A stretch of 64,000 nt of DNA from Steroidobacter gossypii. GTDB lineage: Bacteria > Pseudomonadota > Gammaproteobacteria > Steroidobacterales > Steroidobacteraceae. Where the stretch lies: the NCBI RefSeq assembly GCF_016801985.1, contig NZ_JAEVLS010000008.1:310001-374000 (forward strand), given 5' to 3'. The position numbers and the translations under genes were made by a program. The notes beneath the pieces are model-generated. The model was not told where the DNA came from, ran no database searches, and saw only the letters and a program-made list of their open reading frames with translations. The first letter of the stretch is position 1, and the number at the start of each line of letters is the position of its first letter. This document shows positions 56,121 through 64,000 of the stretch, in pieces.

Positions 56121-56906
56121 GCTCTCGCCTGTGGCGTTCATGACCAGAGCCATTTCACACGAATGTTCGCCAAAGCGTTCGGATTCTCTCCCGGCCGGTA
56201 TGCGGATTGCGTTCGCGATCAGAGCGGCCAAGTAGTCCTGAACCTGTCCGTCTGACCGCAAGCCCATCCCGCCCGAGCCGATGAAATCGCTTTCATCAGC
56301 CATCCATCCGAGTTGACCCGTCATCCGGGATCGTTCGCCGGTCGACATTCCGATCCGCTCTGCGGCTCGAAGATGAACGCACGGCCGAAGATGCTCTGCG
56401 TGCGATCAAGAATCGCGATACTGCAGCAGCGGGTCCATCGCCGACGCGTTCACGTCATTTGTCGATCACGGCAGCAATCAGCGTCACGAGAGTGAAACAG
56501 AGCGGCCTTTGCATGCGGCCAGTGGATTGAGTCTGTGTCGCACAACCCTCGCGGCGTCGCCTCGATTCGACTACAGAGTAACCGGCAACGAACATATACA
56601 CCGAGGTATCGTCAACGTCGTGCACGCGAGCGGTGCGCTCATCGAGCGACGATTTCATTCTTTGCGCACATTGAATGTGGCGCGATTTGGGTTAGGCTTT
56701 ACCCGGAATGAATCGTCGCGCGCTGGCCAGCGGTTTGCATCAGTCCCCGCGTAGGCGATTTCTTCTCACTGCAACCTGGCCGCAATGAACTCTACTTGTG
56801 CGTCGGCCGAGTTGTAGCAAACGAGTCAGGCGATCGTCATGCGACGGCAATATGGCGCGCGATATTTTTGCAGCAGGGAAGCGCATCGAGGGAAGGCGCG
56901 ACATCG
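56121..56906. other. Non-coding stretch before the NusG-like cassette
   Basis: About 790 bp have no open frame that I trust; short frames here have atypical composition and no recognisable domain. It probably contains the promoter of the NusG-like gene and the debris boundary of the integrase island. A loose TTGAAT-16-TAGGCT near 56.68 kb is the best promoter-like match. Confidence 0.35.
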
Positions 56907-57407
56907 ATGGGGTCAAGCGTTGAACCGTGGTTCGTGCTTCGCACGCGTTGCCACCACGAGAATGCGGTGCAAAACGAGCTGGAACGAAAGCAAATCGTTT
57001 CGTTTCTGCCGATGCGCACGATCGTGCGCCGTCGCAGCGAGCGTCGATCGCTGCTGAGAGTGCCGCTTTTTCCGGGCTATGTTTTCGTTCAGCCACGCGC
57101 GGACGAATTTCATGAAATCCGCTGCATTCGCGGCTCTTGCGGCTTTGTGCTGGCAGGAGCGAGGCCCGCGCCGATGTCGGAGCAGGAGCTCGAAGCGGTG
57201 CGCATCATCGTTGGCAGCGGCGCCGCGCTCGTAGTGAATCCGCAGCTCATTCCGGGTCAACGTGTCGCAGTCGTCGCCGGGCCCTTCATGGGAGTGCAAG
57301 GCGTGTTGACGCGCGTGAAGTGCCAGCAGCGCCTGGTGATCAACGCGCATCTCCTCAACACGAGCGTGAGCGTGGAGGTCGACGTCGATAAGATCATCGT
57401 GTTGTGA
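56907..57407 (+). CDS. NusG/RfaH-like specialised antitermination factor, copy 1
   Basis: The 166-residue protein starts at ATG 56907 (MGSSVEPWFV). An NGN domain (about 6-105; WFVLRTRCHHE, VPLFPGYVFVQP) is joined to a C-terminal KOW domain (about 115-166; PGQRVAVVAGPFMGVQG). It has the length and layout of RfaH/LoaP/TaA-type NusG paralogues, which ride with RNA polymerase through long operons after recruitment at a leader element. It is clearly paralogous to the gene at 60435 (shared SVEPWFVLRTR, PLFPGY-FVQP, VGSGAAL-VNPQLIPGQRV). Such paralogues are known in polyketide and capsule loci. An ops-like element lies 165 bp past its stop. Confidence 0.9.
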   Translation: MGSSVEPWFVLRTRCHHENAVQNELERKQIVSFLPMRTIVRRRSERRSLLRVPLFPGYVFVQPRADEFHEIRCIRGSCGFVLAGARPAPMSEQELEAVRIIVGSGAALVVNPQLIPGQRVAVVAGPFMGVQGVLTRVKCQQRLVINAHLLNTSVSVEVDVDKIIVL

Positions 57408-57430
57408 TCGACGCGCGATATGTTTTGACA

Positions 57431-57446
57431 CGCGAGTGCACTCGCG
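57431..57446. repeat. 16-bp perfect palindrome after NusG-like copy 1
   Basis: CGCGAGTGCACTCGCG is a perfect inverted repeat 24 bp past the NusG-like stop. It could be a small hairpin or a dimeric regulator site. Copy 2 has a weaker version, GAGCGACGCTC, overlapping its stop at about 60.94 kb. Confidence 0.4.
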
Positions 57447-57496
57447 AGTGACGATGCCAAACGAGTCAGCGTCATATTTGTTTCTTGATCTGGCGA

Positions 57497-57524
57497 TTGA
57501 CACGAAGGTTGGATCTGCTACCTT
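57497..57524 (+). promoter_or_regulatory. Extended -10 promoter of the cysS leader
   Basis: TTGACA is followed after 16 bp by TACCTT, with TG at the extended -10 position (TGCTACCTT). The whole segment parallels the promoter at 60985-61012. Both are followed by an ops-like element starting about 48 bp after the -10. Confidence 0.65.
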
Positions 57525-57564
57525 CCCGACCGCACAGAGGATTGTTAGAAACGTGGCGCAGTTG

Positions 57565-57590
57565 ACGTGACGGGGCGGAGCGTACCCGAA
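57565..57590 (+). promoter_or_regulatory. ops-like recruitment element 1
   Basis: A 26-bp block, identical at 25 positions with 61052-61077, contains GGGCGGAGCGTACCCGAA at its end. The core GGCGGAGCGT resembles the E. coli ops element GGCGGTAGCGTG, short of one loop base. The ops hairpin pairs (CG..CG) can still form, with loop GAG. It lies about 42 nt into the predicted transcript, a suitable place for RfaH-like recruitment. The NusG-like genes beside it are the presumed readers. Confidence 0.7.
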
Positions 57591-57922
57591 AGTCAAAGAA
57601 GCAACTTCAAACGCAGTTCGAATCTCACTGTTTTTGTTAGAGAGCAATAAGCGCCTCGCATCTCGCGAGTATCGCGCGTCTGGCCAAAACACCGTAGCTA
57701 ACAAGCACATCCCGCCGGATTTTCAACGGCGGCGTCTCGTGCGCACACCTGCATGATTGCTTTCCCGACTATCGCAGCGACTGCAGCGATGGCAGGGATT
57801 TCTGCGTGCCGTAAAAGGGGCAATCGGTCCGTTTGGCTCTGCATGTACGCATGCATGACGTCGCGTACGACACTCGGCAACGCAACTCGTTCTGCGGTGA
57901 AATGGTTCCGGAGTTCACGCGC
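57591..57922 (+). other. Leader between ops-like element 1 and cysS
   Basis: About 330 nt of predicted 5' leader separate the ops-like element from cysS. A short frame at 57753 is open but not convincing. No T-box (specifier/antiterminator with conserved T-box sequence) was seen. In-frame upstream starts for cysS were considered and rejected for lack of conserved residues. Confidence 0.35.
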
Positions 57923-59344
57923 ATGCCTATTCAGATATTCAACTCGCTGAGCGGCCGCAAGGAAGAATTCCGCAGTCACGAGGCGGGCGTGGTCCGCATG
58001 TACGTCTGCGGAGATACGGTTTATGACTTCTGCCACATCGGCCATGCGCGATCCAAAGTTGCATTCGATACCGTGCGGCGATATCTGGAGTACCGCGGCT
58101 ATCGCGTCGTCCACGTGCGGAACATCACAGACATCGACGACAAGATCATCCAGCGCGCGAACCAGAACGGCGAGAGCATTCAATCGCTGACGCAGCGTTT
58201 TATCGCAGCGATGCACGAGGACTACGATCGTCTGGGCATCCTCCGGCCGACGCACGAGCCGAGGGCGACCGAGCACATTGGCGGCATCATCGCGCTGACT
58301 CGGCGGCTCGTCGATAAAGGCCATGCATACGTCGCTGCCAACGGCGACGTGATGTATTCGGTCGCGAGCTTCGCGGAGTACGGGCGACTCTCCGGCCGCG
58401 ATCTCGACGATCTGCGAGCGGGGGCGCGCGTCGCGGTCGACGAAGCCAAGCGCGATCCCGCCGATTTCGTGTTGTGGAAACGTGCCAAACCCGGCGAGCC
58501 TTGCTGGCCCTCGCCGTGGGGCGATGGGCGCCCCGGCTGGCACATCGAATGTTCCGCCATGTCGCTGGATCTGCTCGGGTCGCGCTTCGACATTCATGGC
58601 GGCGGAATGGATCTGAAGTTCCCGCATCACGAGAATGAAATCGCGCAATCGTGCGCGGCGACCGGCGATACGTTTGCGACCGTTTGGATGCACAACGGTT
58701 TCGTCAACATCGATGATCAGAAGATGTCGAAGTCTCTCGGCAACTTCTTTCGGATTCGCGACGTGCTCGGCTCGGGTTACCTGCGCGATCCGGAAGTGCT
58801 GCGATTCTTTCTCGCCTCCAGCCACTATCGCGGTCCCATCAACTATTCGCTGGTGCAGATCGAGCAGGCAGATGCCGCGCTGTGCCGGCTCTACACGGCG
58901 CTGCGCGACCTTCCGGAAGCCGCTGCATGGCGGCCGAGCGCAGCGACGCAACGATTCGAGGAGGCGATGGACGACGACTTCAACTCGCCGGACGCCATCG
59001 CCGCGTTACAGACACTCGCGACGCAAATCAATCGTGCGAAGTCGTCAGGCGAGATCGCGACAGCCGCGGCACTGGCCTCCGAGCTGAAGTCGTTGGGGCG
59101 AGTGTTGGGCGTGCTTCAACTCGCGCCCGAAGAGTTTTTGCGCAAGTCGAAAGTCGCGCACGAGCTTGGCGAGCAAACGCCTGACATGAGCATCGCGAGA
59201 ATCGAGTTGCTGATTGCGGCGCGCAGCGTGGCTCGTGCCGCGGGCAAGTTCAAAGAGTCGGACAGCATCCGCGACCAGCTTTCGCACGCGGGCATTCTCC
59301 TGGAAGACAAGCCGGACAAGACCACGACCTGGCGTCGCCTCTGA
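57923..59344 (+). CDS. cysS: Cysteinyl-tRNA synthetase
   Basis: The 473-residue class I synthetase charges tRNA-Cys. ATG 57923 follows GGAG by nine bases; in-frame starts at 57833 and 57902 extend it. Active-site motifs are intact: HIGH at 38-41, KMSKS at 267-271, the zinc ligands C29 (MYVCGD), the C in HIECSAMS and the HHENE histidine. It runs full length to the C-terminal TTTWRR. The stop overlaps the start of the phosphoesterase gene by one base (TGATG). It sits inside what looks like a biosynthetic locus, so it may be a second, dedicated or resistance copy; whether the genome has another cysS is not visible. Confidence 0.95.
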   Translation: MPIQIFNSLSGRKEEFRSHEAGVVRMYVCGDTVYDFCHIGHARSKVAFDTVRRYLEYRGYRVVHVRNITDIDDKIIQRANQNGESIQSLTQRFIAAMHEDYDRLGILRPTHEPRATEHIGGIIALTRRLVDKGHAYVAANGDVMYSVASFAEYGRLSGRDLDDLRAGARVAVDEAKRDPADFVLWKRAKPGEPCWPSPWGDGRPGWHIECSAMSLDLLGSRFDIHGGGMDLKFPHHENEIAQSCAATGDTFATVWMHNGFVNIDDQKMSKSLGNFFRIRDVLGSGYLRDPEVLRFFLASSHYRGPINYSLVQIEQADAALCRLYTALRDLPEAAAWRPSAATQRFEEAMDDDFNSPDAIAALQTLATQINRAKSSGEIATAAALASELKSLGRVLGVLQLAPEEFLRKSKVAHELGEQTPDMSIARIELLIAARSVARAAGKFKESDSIRDQLSHAGILLEDKPDKTTTWRRL

Positions 59345-60105
59345 TGCGGCTGTTCGCGCTGTCCGATGTGCACGTCGATTACGAAGCCAATTTCAAATGG
59401 GTTCGCAATCTCTCCAGGATCGATTATCGCGACGACGTGTTGATTCTGGCGGGCGACGTTACACACCATCAGTCACAGCTCGCCGCTTGTCTGGACACGC
59501 TGGTGGGGCGCTTCAGAAATGTTTTGTTCGTGCCCGGCAACCACGACCTGTGGGTTTGGGGCGAGGAACGCGAGCAGACGTCACTGCACAAGTTTGCCCG
59601 TGTCGTGGCCACGGTCGAGGCAAGCGGCGCCGTGATGCAGCCGTCTTGGTACGGGCAGACGCTGATCGTGCCGCTGCTCGGATGGTACGACTACAGTTTC
59701 GGGGCTCCTTCGGAGGAGCTACGGCAGATGTGGATGGATTATCGCGCGTGCCGCTGGCCCGAAAAATTCGAAGTCGAGGACGTGGCTGCGCATTTCGCCG
59801 GCTTGAATCGCGAGGTCGCGCCGGCGGCCGCGACAAGAGTCATTACGTTTTCGCATTTTCTGCCGCGGGTTGACCTGGTCCCGGCATTCGTGCCCGCTCG
59901 ACATCGCGTGCTCGATCCGGTGCTCGGCAGCACTCGGCTGGAACGTCGATTGCGTCAGCTGCGCTCCACGCTGCACATCTATGGGCACAGCCACATCAAT
60001 CGACGCGTTCGACTCGACGGCGTCACGTACGTGAACAATGCCTTCGGCTATCCCAGCGAATCCGGCATGACCGCCAGAGAGCTGCTGTGCGTGGCTGAGA
60101 TCTGA
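59344..60105 (+). CDS. Calcineurin-like metallophosphoesterase
   Basis: The 253-residue protein has all five metallophosphoesterase motifs: D-x-H (D8, H10), GDVTHH (D38), GNHD (N67, H68), FSHFLPR and GHSHINRR. It is probably cytoplasmic, cleaving a phosphomonoester or phosphodiester; the substrate is unknown. It is translationally coupled to cysS (TGATG overlap), so in this locus it may act on a nucleotide or phosphopantetheine product. Confidence 0.88.
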   Translation: MRLFALSDVHVDYEANFKWVRNLSRIDYRDDVLILAGDVTHHQSQLAACLDTLVGRFRNVLFVPGNHDLWVWGEEREQTSLHKFARVVATVEASGAVMQPSWYGQTLIVPLLGWYDYSFGAPSEELRQMWMDYRACRWPEKFEVEDVAAHFAGLNREVAPAAATRVITFSHFLPRVDLVPAFVPARHRVLDPVLGSTRLERRLRQLRSTLHIYGHSHINRRVRLDGVTYVNNAFGYPSESGMTARELLCVAEI

Positions 60106-60434
60106 CACAGGCCCGGAAGCGGGGCGCTCGAGCGAGCTCGGGCAATGCAGCTTCACCATCGGCACGCGCGTGCCGTATTCACCGCCAGACAGCCGGCACC
60201 GTGACCGCGCCGGCCGATGGTCTTTCCAGCAATTCGCTCCTACGGCCGAGTACCGGCCGCGCCTTGCGCCGACCCGCCAGATCTCGATTCGACCGCTGTT
60301 GCAAGCGTCCGAGCATTCGCGACGGCCCGAGTTATCGGGCGCGGCGCTGATGAAGGGCGCGAGGAACTGGCGTCGCTACGTCATGGCTTGGCGGTTCGCA
60401 AGCGGCTCGGGGCGATAGAACAGGGAGGCACGAG
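60106..60434. other. Intergenic region before NusG-like copy 2
   Basis: The 329 bp contain no gene I can support. CGGCACGCGCGTGCCG at 60160-60175 is a perfect 16-bp palindrome and may terminate or fold. A good Shine-Dalgarno (GGGAGG) precedes the next gene. Confidence 0.4.
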
Positions 60435-60941
60435 ATGATGATGCAGTCGAGCGTTGAACCTTGGTTCGTTCTTCGGACCCGAAGCCATCACGAGAACACT
60501 GCGCATAACGATCTGCGGGTCAGGCGCATCAATTCCTATTTGCCGTTGCGCACGGTGACGCGAAATCGCAATGGCCGCAGGACTCCGATGCAGGTGCCGC
60601 TGTTTCCAGGTTATATATTCGTGCAGCCGCGCCTGGAGCAGTTCGAGAACATTCGCTACGTGCGCGGTTCCTGCGGGCTCGTGCTGCATGGAATGAAGCC
60701 TGCGCCCATGCCCGAAAAGGATCTGGAAGCAGTGCGAATCCTGGTTGGCAGCGGCGCCGCGCTCGCTGTGAATCCGCAGCTCATTCCCGGCCAGCGCGTC
60801 GAAGTGATCGCCGGTCCCTTCATGGGCGTGCAGGGCGAGCTGATTCGCGTGAAGTGTCAGCAGCGCCTGGTGCTGAACACTCATCTGCTCAACAGCAGCG
60901 TGAGCGTGGAAGTCGACGCGGACAAAGTCGTGATCTTGTGA
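60435..60941 (+). CDS. NusG/RfaH-like specialised antitermination factor, copy 2
   Basis: The 168-residue paralogue of the gene at 56907 has NGN (WFVLRTRSHHE, VPLFPGYIFVQP) and KOW (PGQRVEVIAGPFMGVQG) domains. ATG 60435, followed directly by ATGATG, is behind GGGAGGCACG. It differs most from copy 1 in the NGN middle (NSYLPLRTVTRNRNG), a surface that contacts the non-template strand in RfaH. A promoter and ops-like element follow, as in copy 1. Confidence 0.9.
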   Translation: MMMQSSVEPWFVLRTRSHHENTAHNDLRVRRINSYLPLRTVTRNRNGRRTPMQVPLFPGYIFVQPRLEQFENIRYVRGSCGLVLHGMKPAPMPEKDLEAVRILVGSGAALAVNPQLIPGQRVEVIAGPFMGVQGELIRVKCQQRLVLNTHLLNSSVSVEVDADKVVIL

Positions 60942-60984
60942 GCGACGCTCGCGGAATGTTTGCAAATCTGGTTCGAGTTTCCGG

Positions 60985-61012
60985 TTGACACGAGAGCTGG
61001 ATTTGTTACTCT
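60985..61012 (+). promoter_or_regulatory. Extended -10 promoter of the ACP-fusion operon
   Basis: TTGACA is separated by 16 bp from TACTCT with an extended TG (TGTTACTCT). It is the counterpart of the promoter at 57497. Confidence 0.65.
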
Positions 61013-61051
61013 GCAGCTATCCAAAAACGTTCCCTCGCATCGCGTGATCAA

Positions 61052-61077
61052 ACGTGACAGGGCGGAGCGTACCCGAA
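61052..61077 (+). promoter_or_regulatory. ops-like recruitment element 2
   Basis: This is the second copy of the 26-bp block, again ending GGGCGGAGCGTACCCGAA; one base differs from copy 1. It starts 40 bp after the -10 end region, at about +41 of the predicted transcript, and 172 bp before the next start codon. The two copies share promoter, spacing and element, while the flanking DNA has diverged, which supports function. Confidence 0.7.
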
Positions 61078-61248
61078 TGACGAACAGCTCATTCGGCATC
61101 TCATCCAAGTGTTGATCCTGCGGACCTGCGCTCGCCTCCCGAGCGCACTCACCGGCTTCGTTACTTTCATTCTTGGATTGCACAGCTCTTCGCGCGTGGC
61201 GAGGAGTGTTCGTTCGTGCGCGCGCTTCGGCAATCCCATGGAGGCGCT

Positions 61249-61566
61249 ATGGCGATGCAAACTTTCGAAGAGCTGGCGGACGAAGACCTGGACCGGATCG
61301 AAGCTCGAGCGGCGGCCGCGACCACCGGACCCTGGTTCTCATATGTGGCCGGCCGCGATCCGGAAGCCGACGGCAGCTTCATCGAGCTGGGCAGGTGTAA
61401 CGAAGTCGGGACCTTCGAGTCCATCGAGCTCGTCGGCGCGACGGCAGCCGACCAGGACTTCATCGCCAGCGCGAGGCAGGATGTGCCGATGTTGCTGCGT
61501 GCAGTTCGCTGCTTGCGCGCCCGCCTGCGCTACGAATCCGTTTCGAACAAGAACGACTCGCACTAG
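61249..61566 (+). CDS. Small Ea22/Ead-like protein of unknown function
   Basis: The 105-residue product starts at ATG 61249 behind GGAGGCGCT. It has the pattern of phage Ea22/Ead-type small proteins: an acidic N-terminal helix (EELADEDLDRIEARAAAATTGPW), then DQDFIASARQDVPMLLRAVRCLRARL. The role is unknown in the family. It is the first gene after ops-like element 2 and is 10 bp from the large fusion gene. Confidence 0.65.
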   Translation: MAMQTFEELADEDLDRIEARAAAATTGPWFSYVAGRDPEADGSFIELGRCNEVGTFESIELVGATAADQDFIASARQDVPMLLRAVRCLRARLRYESVSNKNDSH

Positions 61567-61576
61567 ATCAACGACG

Positions 61577-64000
61577 ATGGACCAGGACACGTTACAGGAC
61601 CGGACCGAGACTTATCTGACGTCGCTGATCAGCGCGGCGGCACAGACATCCGCTGCGTTCGATGCGCAGGCGCCATTCGGCGAGCTCGGCGTCAACTCGT
61701 TCCAGGTGCTCAAGATCATCAAGCGGCTGGAGCAGGACTTCGGCGCCTTGCCGAAAACGCTGTTGTTCGAGAATTTCAACGTTCGGGATCTCGCGAGCTA
61801 CTTCGTAAAGGCGCATGCGGCCGTGCTGGCTCAAAAGTTTGCAACCGAAACGGCCGCTCCTGTCCGCTCATCCGCGCCGCGGGTCGAGCTCACGGAAAAG
61901 GCGGCGCCGGCACAGAGCGCGCCGACCATCGCAGCCGCCGCGGCGCCGCCGAAGCTCATCGCGATCAAGCACCTGGAGAATTATCCGCAGCTCCAGCGGC
62001 GGCGCCAGGAAATCTTTCATCAGTACAAGAATGAGTCGTCGGTCTCGCGCGGCACCCAAGTGATCGCGCCGCTGCTGTTCTTCGGCGGCGAGCAGCGCGG
62101 CTATTTCAACTGCGGCCGCAGCAAGGACATCTTGCTTGCCTACGGGTACACCGGGCCGGCCGATCACTTCCTGTCGCTCGCCGAGCAACTGTATCGCTAC
62201 TGCACGGACCGCGGACTGCAGTTCAATTTGTTTGCCGAACAGCCGTTGCCCGATATGTGCGGCAAGCGCTTTACCGCGACCCCGTTCGGGGTCATGCAGC
62301 GGATCGTCGACCTGCGCTCGTTCACGCTCGAAGGACAGAAGATGCGCCGTTTGCGCTATCAGGTGTCCAAGTTCGAGAAAGCGGGCGCGTGTCGCACCGA
62401 GGAATACCTCTGTGGCAGCGACCCGCAAAAAGCGCAGACGATCGCGGCCATCATCGACAAGTGGTGCGCTTCGCGCACGATGGTCAATCCGCTCATATAT
62501 ATCGTCAAGGACGAGATCCTCGCCGGCACACTCGCCCGCGAGCATCGGCTGTTCCTGACCTATGTCGACGACGTCATGCAGAACGTAATTCTGATCTCGC
62601 CGATGGCGGCGGGCGAGCAGGGCGATCGTCGGGGCTATCTGATGGACCTGGAGTTCTACGGCGCCGACATGCCGCTCGGCGGCCTGGAGTTCGCGATCGT
62701 CAATATCGTCAACACGCTGCTGGCCGAAGGCTGCGACGTGTTCAGCATGGGCGGTACTTACGGCTGCAAGTGCAGCGACTCGCCGACTGCCGATGCCGAG
62801 ATCGAGAGCGTGCTGAGCGATCTGCGGCAGCAGAACATCTTCAACGACGAAGGTAATCTGCAGTTCAAGAACAAGTTTCGTCCCGAGAACAAGAATATCT
62901 TTCTGTGTCGTGCGGCGGACGCCGGCAAGGCGGACAACGTCATCGACATCATCATGATGATCGCCGATCCGGCGCTCACGCAGGCCGATGATGTCGATGG
63001 CGTAGCTGCGCAGACGCAGCCGCCAGTGGCAGCCGCGATCGAAGGCAATGGGCGCTCGCAGGCGCTGGCCGAAGCCGGGTTCAATCCGCACAACCTTCCC
63101 ACGGAGCACGTCGATTTCGACCTGAAGACGGATTCGTGGGCGCAGCTGCGACTGCCGGCCATCGAAAAGCAGACGTCCACTCTGTTGGGGAGATTGCAGC
63201 AGCCCGTGAACGTCAATTCGGCGCTTCGAGAGCTGTTGCCGTTCAATCATTTCGTGCTGACGGAATCCGGGCGGGCGGCGGAAGAGGTTTTCTGCCGAGC
63301 ATGGCAGAAGCAGGGGCGAGTGCCCCAGAACGTGCTGTTCCCGAGCACGATCTTCCATCAGATCGACAAAGGCTTCGAGCCGCGGGAAATGCCATGCGCC
63401 GCGCTGTTCGATCTGCACGCCAACGCGTTGTACAAGGGCAACTTGGACGTGGCGGCGCTGCGCGCGGAGCTCGAGCAATACAGTGCGAACATCGCCTATG
63501 TCTGCATCGAGTTGGCAAACAACGCGGCGGGCGGCGGGGCGGTTTCGTTATCTCACCTGAAGCAAGTGAAGGCGTTGCTGGAGCAGCACGGCATTGCATT
63601 GGTACTGGATGCAACGCGCGTGCTGGAGAATGCGCTCGCCCTCCTCGAGGACGATTCCGAGTGCCCGGGCAAGTCGCTGTGGCAAGTCGCGACTGACCTG
63701 TTGTCGCAGGCCGATGCTGTTGTCGCGAGTCTGGCCAAGGACTTTTGCGTCAACAAAGGCGGCCTCATTGCGACCAATGATCCGGCGCTGTACGAACGGC
63801 TGCAGGCATTGCTGCAACGGGACGGCAAGGGCCTGGACGTGATCGATAGAAGATGTGTCGCGCTGTCGCTGCGGAATCAAAAGTTCATCGAGAGCCAGGT
63901 GCGTCGGCGCGTCGCAGCCGTGCGCTCATTGCAGCAGCGGCTGCTCGACTGTGGCGTGCCGCTGGCGAATCGGGCGGCGGGCCATTGCGTGCTGATCGAT
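61577..64000 (+). CDS. Carrier protein / acyltransferase-like / PLP beta-eliminating lyase fusion (partial, runs off the right end)
   Basis: The frame is open for 808 codons to the window edge. Residues 1-80 form an acyl carrier domain with the phosphopantetheine serine S41 in LGVNSF. An Ala/Pro-rich linker (about 80-125) is followed by a domain (about 130-430) resembling the GNAT/FemAB-like DUF2156 fold of aminoacyl-tRNA-dependent transferases (MGGTYGCKCSD; LQFKNKFRPENKNIFL). From about 490 the C-terminus is a tryptophanase/tyrosine-phenol-lyase-like PLP domain (LTESGRAAEEVF; VVLDATRVLEN-type LVLDATRVLEN; putative PLP lysine K721 in SLAKDFCVNKGG). The combination suggests loading an amino acid, possibly cysteine given the adjacent cysS, on a carrier and cleaving it. 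The middle domain call is tentative. Confidence 0.75.
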   Translation, partial: MDQDTLQDRTETYLTSLISAAAQTSAAFDAQAPFGELGVNSFQVLKIIKRLEQDFGALPKTLLFENFNVRDLASYFVKAHAAVLAQKFATETAAPVRSSAPRVELTEKAAPAQSAPTIAAAAAPPKLIAIKHLENYPQLQRRRQEIFHQYKNESSVSRGTQVIAPLLFFGGEQRGYFNCGRSKDILLAYGYTGPADHFLSLAEQLYRYCTDRGLQFNLFAEQPLPDMCGKRFTATPFGVMQRIVDLRSFTLEGQKMRRLRYQVSKFEKAGACRTEEYLCGSDPQKAQTIAAIIDKWCASRTMVNPLIYIVKDEILAGTLAREHRLFLTYVDDVMQNVILISPMAAGEQGDRRGYLMDLEFYGADMPLGGLEFAIVNIVNTLLAEGCDVFSMGGTYGCKCSDSPTADAEIESVLSDLRQQNIFNDEGNLQFKNKFRPENKNIFLCRAADAGKADNVIDIIMMIADPALTQADDVDGVAAQTQPPVAAAIEGNGRSQALAEAGFNPHNLPTEHVDFDLKTDSWAQLRLPAIEKQTSTLLGRLQQPVNVNSALRELLPFNHFVLTESGRAAEEVFCRAWQKQGRVPQNVLFPSTIFHQIDKGFEPREMPCAALFDLHANALYKGNLDVAALRAELEQYSANIAYVCIELANNAAGGGAVSLSHLKQVKALLEQHGIALVLDATRVLENALALLEDDSECPGKSLWQVATDLLSQADAVVASLAKDFCVNKGGLIATNDPALYERLQALLQRDGKGLDVIDRRCVALSLRNQKFIESQVRRRVAAVRSLQQRLLDCGVPLANRAAGHCVLID

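Follow-up and report, generated by a model that had tools for sequence, protein, structure and literature searches.

A candidate loading site for UpxY-type NusG paralogues in the leader of a Steroidobacter polyketide synthase operon

A polyketide synthase (PKS) operon and its accompanying genes carry in their 5′ leaders an ops-like cis element that probably loads the cluster's own UpxY-type antiterminator. We found the element in a 64,000-nt stretch of Steroidobacter gossypii DNA (the window), and comparison of genes, element, genome specificity, orientation and conservation shows it as a putative tag common to related PKS clusters. Loading, pausing, hairpin formation, antitermination and a single PKS transcript are what we infer for its function.

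The two NusG/RfaH-like genes proposed in an earlier note on this DNA are both present, on the forward strand at 56907..57407 (copy 1, 166 aa) and 60435..60941 (copy 2, 168 aa). They are 70% identical and of the UpxY/RfaH type, scoring 111.1 and 108.5 bits with the UpxY model NF033644, above the NCBIfam curated cut-off of 100; these alignments cover model positions 1-162 of 164 and span the KOW region in both copies. The NusG N-terminal domain (NGN) was detected above its cut-off at 69.9 and 66.7 bits, and the KOW domain gave 19.9 bits for copy 2 (cut-off 22.3) and no reported match for copy 1. Copies 1 and 2 fall below the cut-offs of the RfaH models TIGR01955 (78.5 and 74.9 bits; cut-off 144.5) and NF006534 (62.7 and 63.3; 124), of the LoaP model NF033641 (64.2 and 57.9; 125) and likewise of the NusG model.

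Each copy is followed, as had been claimed, by a promoter and a downstream element, all on the forward strand. Promoter 1 (57497..57524) consists of TTGACA, a 16-nt spacer and the weak -10 TGC-TACCTT, and promoter 2 (60985..61012), with which it is conserved, has TTGACA, the same spacer length and TGT-TACTCT; the extended -10s read TGCTACCTT and TGTTACTCT, respectively. The promoter calls rest on conservation, because each -10 fits TATAAT at 3/6 positions and a strict sigma-70 scan of 57350-61400 returned no promoter. The 26-bp block ACGTGAC(G/A)GGGCGGAGCGTACCCGAA lies at 57565..57590 (element 1) and 61052..61077 (element 2), with 25/26 positions the same and the ops-like core GGCGGAGC at 57574-57581 and 61061-61068. 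Its 18-mer begins 48 nt (element 1) and 47 nt (element 2) after the -10, that is at about +41/+42 if transcription is assumed to start some 7 nt past the -10 (near 57531 and 61019), in agreement with the distance of about 42 nt given before. Two Rfam hits in 56700-61500, with E values of 5.5 and 5.7, were put down to chance.

The conservation of promoter, spacing and element amid a diverged leader also held: between elements 1 and 2 the core is 1.00 identical and the remaining leader 0.23-0.36. These values bear on the reading of the block as a functionless leftover of a segmental duplication. Elements 1 and 2 do derive from a duplicated nusG-promoter-element segment, and the third element described below shares 0.48 identity with element 2 at +19..+60 after the element, but a leader so diverged around an identical core, and a core kept in other genera, make this origin without function scarcely credible.

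The element is specific to the cluster in its own genome. Within the window, the 18-mer has 2 matches with up to three mismatches against 0.10 expected. Across the genome, 2 sites match it exactly, none differs at one position, 2 differ at two and 6 at three (13 in total for the reversed control). The relaxed block GGGCGGAGCNTNCCCGA occurs exactly three times in the 7.1-Mb Steroidobacter genome, always on the forward strand of contig C30 and in the cluster, where a first-order Markov model trained on 103.9 kb of that contig predicts 0.05 exact matches per genome; there are no matches with one mismatch, and 26 with two against 26 control hits. The block is not scattered at random; wide scatter is what the earlier note had named as adverse to its proposal. 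The third exact match (C30:405072) is a third element, with no NusG-family match within its contig region. Among 369 gammaproteobacterial genomes, an exact match to TGACRGGGCGGAGCNTNCCC is confined to this one. Allowing one mismatch, the 16-mer GGCGGAGCGTACCCGA was found four times in its own genome (2 exact and 2 one-mismatch matches elsewhere) and once in each of 7 other genomes among the 98 searched. Given 18 control hits across all 98, the matches outside the cluster were dismissed as chance. In the five element-bearing genomes, 9/11 matches to GGCGGAGCCTKYSC are elements (control, 13).

Downstream of element 2, the first gene is a 105-aa ORF (61249..61566, forward strand), which has 58-59% homologues after element A of genomes G011 and G001; for the frame overlapping it, profile searches returned no family. 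It is followed by the first PKS gene, which starts at 61577, runs to the end of the window (64000) on the forward strand and continues to C30:381974. With the PKS stretch reaching C30:403615, element 2 stands at the head of some 32 kb of such genes. Element 1 precedes the second cysS (cysteinyl-tRNA synthetase) gene of the genome (57923..59344, forward strand) and a metallophosphoesterase gene (59344..60105, forward strand) that overlaps the cysS stop and has a 59% homologue at the Lysobacter MAG locus; 330 bp then separate it from nusG copy 2. The two phosphoesterase pieces in our joined sequence are an artefact of the 100-bp overlap between stretches. A second cysteinyl-tRNA synthetase gene inside the cluster was observed in three system-bearing genomes, and perhaps such a cysS has a self-protection role.

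No long operon follows element 1 or element 3. Since element 1 heads just cysS and the phosphoesterase gene before nusG copy 2, only one long transcript, assumed from gene order, is likely in the cluster, rather than the two initially proposed. Serial control, with factor 1 governing the operon that carries factor 2, likewise found no support: factor 1 would have no means of telling element 1 from element 2, their 18-mers being identical, and a shared or redundant use of the elements by the two putative factors is likelier. Nor is a self-contained cassette supported, given the third element with no NusG-family match in its contig region and the factor gene of G011 and G001, which lies 81-82 kb past element A and does not adjoin an element. 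In these two genomes, putative luxI/luxR-like genes adjoin the NusG-like gene.

The earlier suggestion to look in related genomes was borne out: the same GGCGGAGC core stands before orthologues of the first PKS gene in a Lysobacter MAG, in Pseudoduganella flava and in two further genomes of Steroidobacter. Relatives with the system include Steroidobacter agaridevorans. In all five genomes the first PKS gene behind the element is an orthologue (54-56% over 1,527-3,114 aa). We collected 11 element copies in five species, 11/11 oriented toward the next gene, although they are not independent, the G011 and G001 copies being near-identical and the three of P. flava tandem. In G011 and G001, two 120-kb stretches gave 25 hits at a tolerance of 5 mismatches, and visual inspection of these left the four elements used here. 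Pairwise identity among seven copies averages 0.97 within the 9-nt core and 0.25-0.32 (near chance) at -60..-8 and +19..+60, the core value being partly circular as the copies were picked with patterns that contain the core. Element 2, the A elements and the Lysobacter and P. flava elements lie in sense orientation ahead of PKS genes, in the predicted transcribed leader of what is presumably a long operon.

A block near the promoter, in clusters with luxI/luxR-like genes beside the NusG-like gene (G011 and G001), could also be a double-stranded operator just past the promoter, bound by a transcription factor peculiar to the cluster, such as one of the LuxR type. We consider this very unlikely, as the core is not palindromic, as operators often are, the copies keep the single orientation, and the core recurs in NusG-paralogue leaders of other phyla that lack such a cluster.

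For example, GTAAGTGACGGGGCGRAGC was found in the leaders of acidobacterial UpxY-type genes, and the same kind of core is present in UpxY-type leaders of other phyla, where the NusG paralogues stand without a PKS cluster. They come from a set of 80 related loci, the best of 533 candidates, and many are related Acidobacteria. A clear motif near the gene is absent in 61 of the 80, and the k-mers over-represented behind the gene are different ones; the GTAA seed was chosen post hoc, after k-mer enrichment on the same loci, and the label "strong" for a motif was also set post hoc, once the element copies had been seen. Alignment A2 comprises 34 of the 80 loci (own matches or slightly longer frames) and four close proteins; locus L064 was excluded for a stop inside the matched stretch.

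The GGCGGAGC core fits a GC-GNA-GC mini-hairpin with a loop one base below that of the E. coli ops. As claimed earlier, the core GGCGGAGCGT misses one loop base of the ops sequence GGCGGTAGCGTG; it has no counterpart of T6, the base that E. coli RfaH reads according to the available part of PMC11001881. For the predicted hairpin, the C-G/G-C pairing is possible on paper. Folded as isolated DNA cores, GGCGGAGCGT and GGCGAAGCTA come out at 0 kcal/mol, so that GGCGGAGCGT has no stable structure, while GGCGGAGCCT reaches -1.4 and the E. coli ops -0.9 kcal/mol. We also considered an outer inverted repeat as a conserved RNA stem and rejected it. Tail shuffles matching the stem, of 2000, number 58 for the third element, 269 for G001B, 301 for G011B and at least 895 for the rest, so that the count falls below 5% in 1/11 copies (the third element). 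This repeat is missing in Acidobacteria, where the short core is present.

The factor might instead bind a hairpin of the nascent leader RNA rather than non-template DNA, as in LoaP, whose control over PKS operons depends on a hairpin in the leader RNA (PMC12691694, in the part available). An outer stem is possible in several elements, the third element and the B elements scoring 6 pairs and B folding at -4.8 kcal/mol. However, in 10/11 copies it does not outdo shuffled tails at the 5% level, it is the short core that persists, even where the outer repeat is missing, and the window's paralogues score below the LoaP cut-off; reading at the RNA level is therefore unlikely.

With loading at the DNA core as the preferred reading, RNA polymerase would start at the promoter behind nusG copy 2 and reach GGCGGAGC about 42 nt later, where the non-template strand could fold into a GC-GGA-GC mini-hairpin; this probably makes the polymerase pause and take up the cluster's UpxY-type NusG paralogue. 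The loaded factor would stay on and keep the polymerase going to the end of the PKS genes, about 32 kb in all. Element 1 would place the second cysS and the metallophosphoesterase gene under the same control. More tentatively, UpxY-type paralogues from acidobacterial and Omnitrophota loci to proteobacterial PKS clusters may share one loading mini-hairpin of the non-template DNA, GC-GN(N)A-GC, of which ops (GC-GGTA-GC) would be the four-base-loop version, with loop length and letters serving as a possible factor code.

Published excerpts show where such an element would matter. In 2020 the way in which NusG paralogues encoded in operons reach their targets was described as unknown (PMC7593976), as was the mechanism of TaA in a 2021 review (PMC7819879), and PMC11001881 asks whether a change of loop bases in ops-like hairpins would bring in a different factor. 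The element bears on that last question of loop bases and factor choice and is a concrete candidate for the site where a UpxY-type factor devoted to PKS genes is loaded; several genera supply natural variants of it. If the proposal is true, silent PKS clusters could be switched on by this route and also found by their motif.

Like the E. coli RfaH/ops system, the one described here combines a NusG paralogue with a short element, GGCGGnAGC, that lies in the transcribed leader before a long operon, and with a possible G2:C, C3:G hairpin (geometry from the accessible part of PMC11001881); unlike it, the proteins are below the RfaH cut-off, the loop is one base shorter with T6 absent, and the factor gene is inside the cluster, where that of RfaH is unlinked. 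LoaP of Bacillus (difficidin, macrolactin) is also a NusG paralogue that serves PKS operons and has an element in their leader (PMC12691694, in part), but our proteins are below its cut-off, and it needs a UNCG RNA hairpin where the part kept here is the GGCGGAGC core. TaA of Myxococcus xanthus, compared by description, is similar in that a NusG-like gene lies in the PKS operon (antibiotic TA) that it activates (excerpts of PMC7819879 and PMC7593976). Finally, UpxY of the Bacteroides capsule operons differs in that the target here is a PKS cluster and the window gene precedes its promoter and element instead of following them within the operon; as with UpxY, the proteins are above the NF033644 cut-off and the gene is within its target cluster (PMC7593976, in part).

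The genome of Steroidobacter gossypii (7.10 Mb, 97.6% complete) contains three matches to the NusG domain. One, on contig C29, was taken as the housekeeping NusG; the other two are copy 1 (56907-57407) and copy 2 (60435-60941) of the window, which spans C30:310001-374000; the two copies share 70% identity. Both exceeded the UpxY cut-off of the family models and fell below the cut-offs for RfaH, LoaP and NusG, and four close proteins used as a profile matched solved structures of NusG (best E 4.1e-14) and RfaH (5.1e-12). The pair of NusG/RfaH-like genes claimed in the earlier note is indeed present, and the promoter and 26-bp block placed there after each gene were also seen. Downstream of both copies, TTGACA and an extended -10 are separated by a spacer of 16 nt, with 48 nt (copy 1) or 47 nt (copy 2) from the -10 to GGGCGGAGCGTACCCGAA; the wider blocks 3′ of the copies match at 25 of their 26 positions. 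The -10 hexamer is weak in each case, and a strict promoter scan missed both promoters, so that it is conservation that supports them.

We looked for the random scatter of the block that had been named as evidence against a dedicated element. The 18-mer within the block has two exact matches in the genome and none at one mismatch. GGGCGGAGCNTNCCCGA occurs exactly three times, always on the + strand of contig C30 (elements 1 to 3, at 367573, 371060 and 405072); at two mismatches, its 26 matches equal the 26 of the control. When 369 gammaproteobacterial genomes were searched for TGACRGGGCGGAGCNTNCCC with at most one mismatch, S. gossypii gave three exact matches and one other genome a one-mismatch match, the control matching once in each of three genomes. 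From the exact-match counts against these controls, the block is therefore not scattered at random. With GGCGGAGCCTKYSC, a pattern that elements 1 and 2 do not fit, 9 of 11 matches in five genomes (S. gossypii, S. agaridevorans, Steroidobacter G011, a Lysobacter MAG and Pseudoduganella flava) were cluster elements, against 13 matches for the control.

Seven copies of the element were compared: the three of S. gossypii, elements A and B of G011, that of Lysobacter and one of P. flava. On the 5′ side, identity averaged over pairs is 0.25 (-60 to -21), 0.32 (-20 to -8) and 0.63 (-7 to -1), and on the 3′ side 0.59 (+10 to +18) and 0.30 (+19 to +60). The 0.97 obtained for the 9-nt core is partly circular because the copies were chosen with patterns holding the core; the non-circular part of the conservation is the near-chance identity on both flanks, together with an orientation common to all 11 copies.

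Element 2 heads a + strand stretch of about 32 kb, the genes of which we infer to form a single transcript. First comes a 105-aa ORF of unknown function (61249-61566, + strand), which is also first after an element in G011 and S. agaridevorans (58-59% identity), then the first PKS gene (61577 to C30:381974, + strand) and further + strand genes, up to C30:403615, for an AMP-ligase, a reductase, KS proteins, a class-III aminotransferase, a KS-thioesterase, an MMPL transporter, a LolA-like protein and a P450. Behind element 1 lie cysS (57923), a metallophosphoesterase gene that overlaps it (59344) and, after 330 bp, nusG copy 2; element 3 precedes the broken remnant of a cysS gene (C30:405473-406073). 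The two long transcripts proposed earlier are not supported, as of the three elements in this genome only element 2 has a long gene stretch behind it. Among the scanned proteins of the ~32-kb stretch, none was assigned to an acyltransferase family; one frame at the stretch join was scanned in part (no family) and frames of 489 and 356 aa were unscanned. Since, in addition, the acyltransferase of the Lysobacter locus is a separate gene, the PKS would be of the trans-AT type. The first PKS protein (L023:1210-12075; in the window from 61577) carries LPG_synthase_C and Beta_elim_lyase besides KS, KR and DH, and both are also found in its Lysobacter and P. flava homologues.

Matches to copy 1 at E ≤1e-12 were found in 4 of 98 related genomes (S. 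gossypii, S. agaridevorans, G011 and the distant G086) and, at E 1e-30 within the genus, in 3 of 14. A collection of 84,980 species was also searched; of the matches listed, those of S. agaridevorans (57%), the Lysobacter MAG (55%) and P. flava (47%) came closest. The stretch that separates the NusG-like gene from the PKS gene contains one element in Lysobacter and three tandem elements, spaced 91 and 101 nt, in P. flava (L045:10665-10870). These PKS genes share 54% identity with the first of the window (over 3,084 aa for Lysobacter and 3,114 aa for P. flava), and their Pfam domains are largely the same. In G011 and S. agaridevorans, element A precedes homologues of the 105-aa ORF and the first PKS gene, element B precedes a further ORF and an unscanned open frame of 5,069 or 5,058 codons, and the NusG-like gene is found 81-82 kb downstream of element A. 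The genes 3′ of it are presumably luxI- and luxR-like (G011, L031:5347-7375; S. agaridevorans, L033:12461-14489).

A second full-length cysS was found in the clusters of S. gossypii (57923-59344), S. agaridevorans and G011 (L147, L148), and one cysS each in G003 and G008, genomes of the genus without the NusG-like gene; the search covered 5 of the 14 genomes available for the genus. The S. gossypii cluster enzyme is 79.5% identical to its C26 counterpart and 63% identical to the cluster enzymes of G011 and S. agaridevorans, which form a separate, fully supported pair in a midpoint-rooted tree of eight rows. The cluster cysS was likely recruited independently, apparently at least twice. Possibly the cluster makes a product that targets cysteinyl-tRNA synthetase, from which the extra copy would protect the producer; a literature search combining this enzyme with self-resistance and gene clusters returned no paper.

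The wider family was represented by the best 80 of 533 candidate UpxY-type loci. On the + strand, GAC(A/G)GGGCGGAGC has five occurrences close to the gene, in a zone reaching from 500 nt ahead of it to 700 nt beyond it. In the remaining sequence of these loci, about 1.09 Mb, it is found once on the minus strand and never on the + strand. A motif-free k-mer count placed CCTGTAAGTG upstream in six loci but in none of the 1,275 far windows; for GGGCGAAGCT the figures were eight loci and four far windows. Of 15 occurrences of [CG][CT]GTAA[CG]T[CG] near the gene on the + strand, 11 have GCGN(N)AGC no more than 28 nt downstream, compared with 0 of 7 near the gene on the minus strand and 0 of 37 far from it. 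The loops after this seed have three bases (GCGGAGC, GCGAAGC) or four (GCGGTAGC in L079; GCGAAAGC in L116), and GTGACGGGGCGGAGC is common, letter for letter, to element 1 and the acidobacterial leaders L070 and L099. A motif labelled clear post hoc lies near the gene in 19 of the 80 loci and is absent from 61, including L044 of S. agaridevorans. In addition, CATAACTACTTGACTT-like words and TGTGCAGCTTTT are enriched downstream of the NusG-like gene across the 80 loci (L043-L122), which suggests that some of the family carry another conserved element.

In GGCGGAGC, G2 could pair with C8 and C3 with G7 around the loop G4-G5-A6. DNA mini-hairpins with GNA loops are unusually stable. A hairpin of extraordinary stability is described for a CGCGAAGCG segment (PMC10527192); the folding program did not show a mini-hairpin for the window core. 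For E. coli ops, a hairpin of the non-template strand with the pairs G2:C9, C3:G8 and G4:A7 is described, in which G5 and T6 are the bases recognized by RfaH (PMC11001881). The leader could instead be read as nascent RNA, for which LoaP provides the precedent (PMC12691694). With moderate confidence, we favor loading through the DNA hairpin over such RNA reading. Since elements 1 and 2 do not differ, each may be used by either factor, and the serial cascade suggested earlier, with factor 1 controlling the operon of factor 2, is not indicated. In the literature searched, which left out most subscription papers, no ops-like element was seen for proteobacterial or acidobacterial NusG paralogues that are UpxY-type or linked to PKS genes (PMC7593976, PMC12691694, PMC7819879, PMC13015549, PMC11001881, PMC10527192). 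Finally, a 2026 preprint reports that the genes of most RfaH-like proteins in its monomorphic clade adjoin or sit inside a long operon (PMC13015549), and the layout of the window is in line with this.
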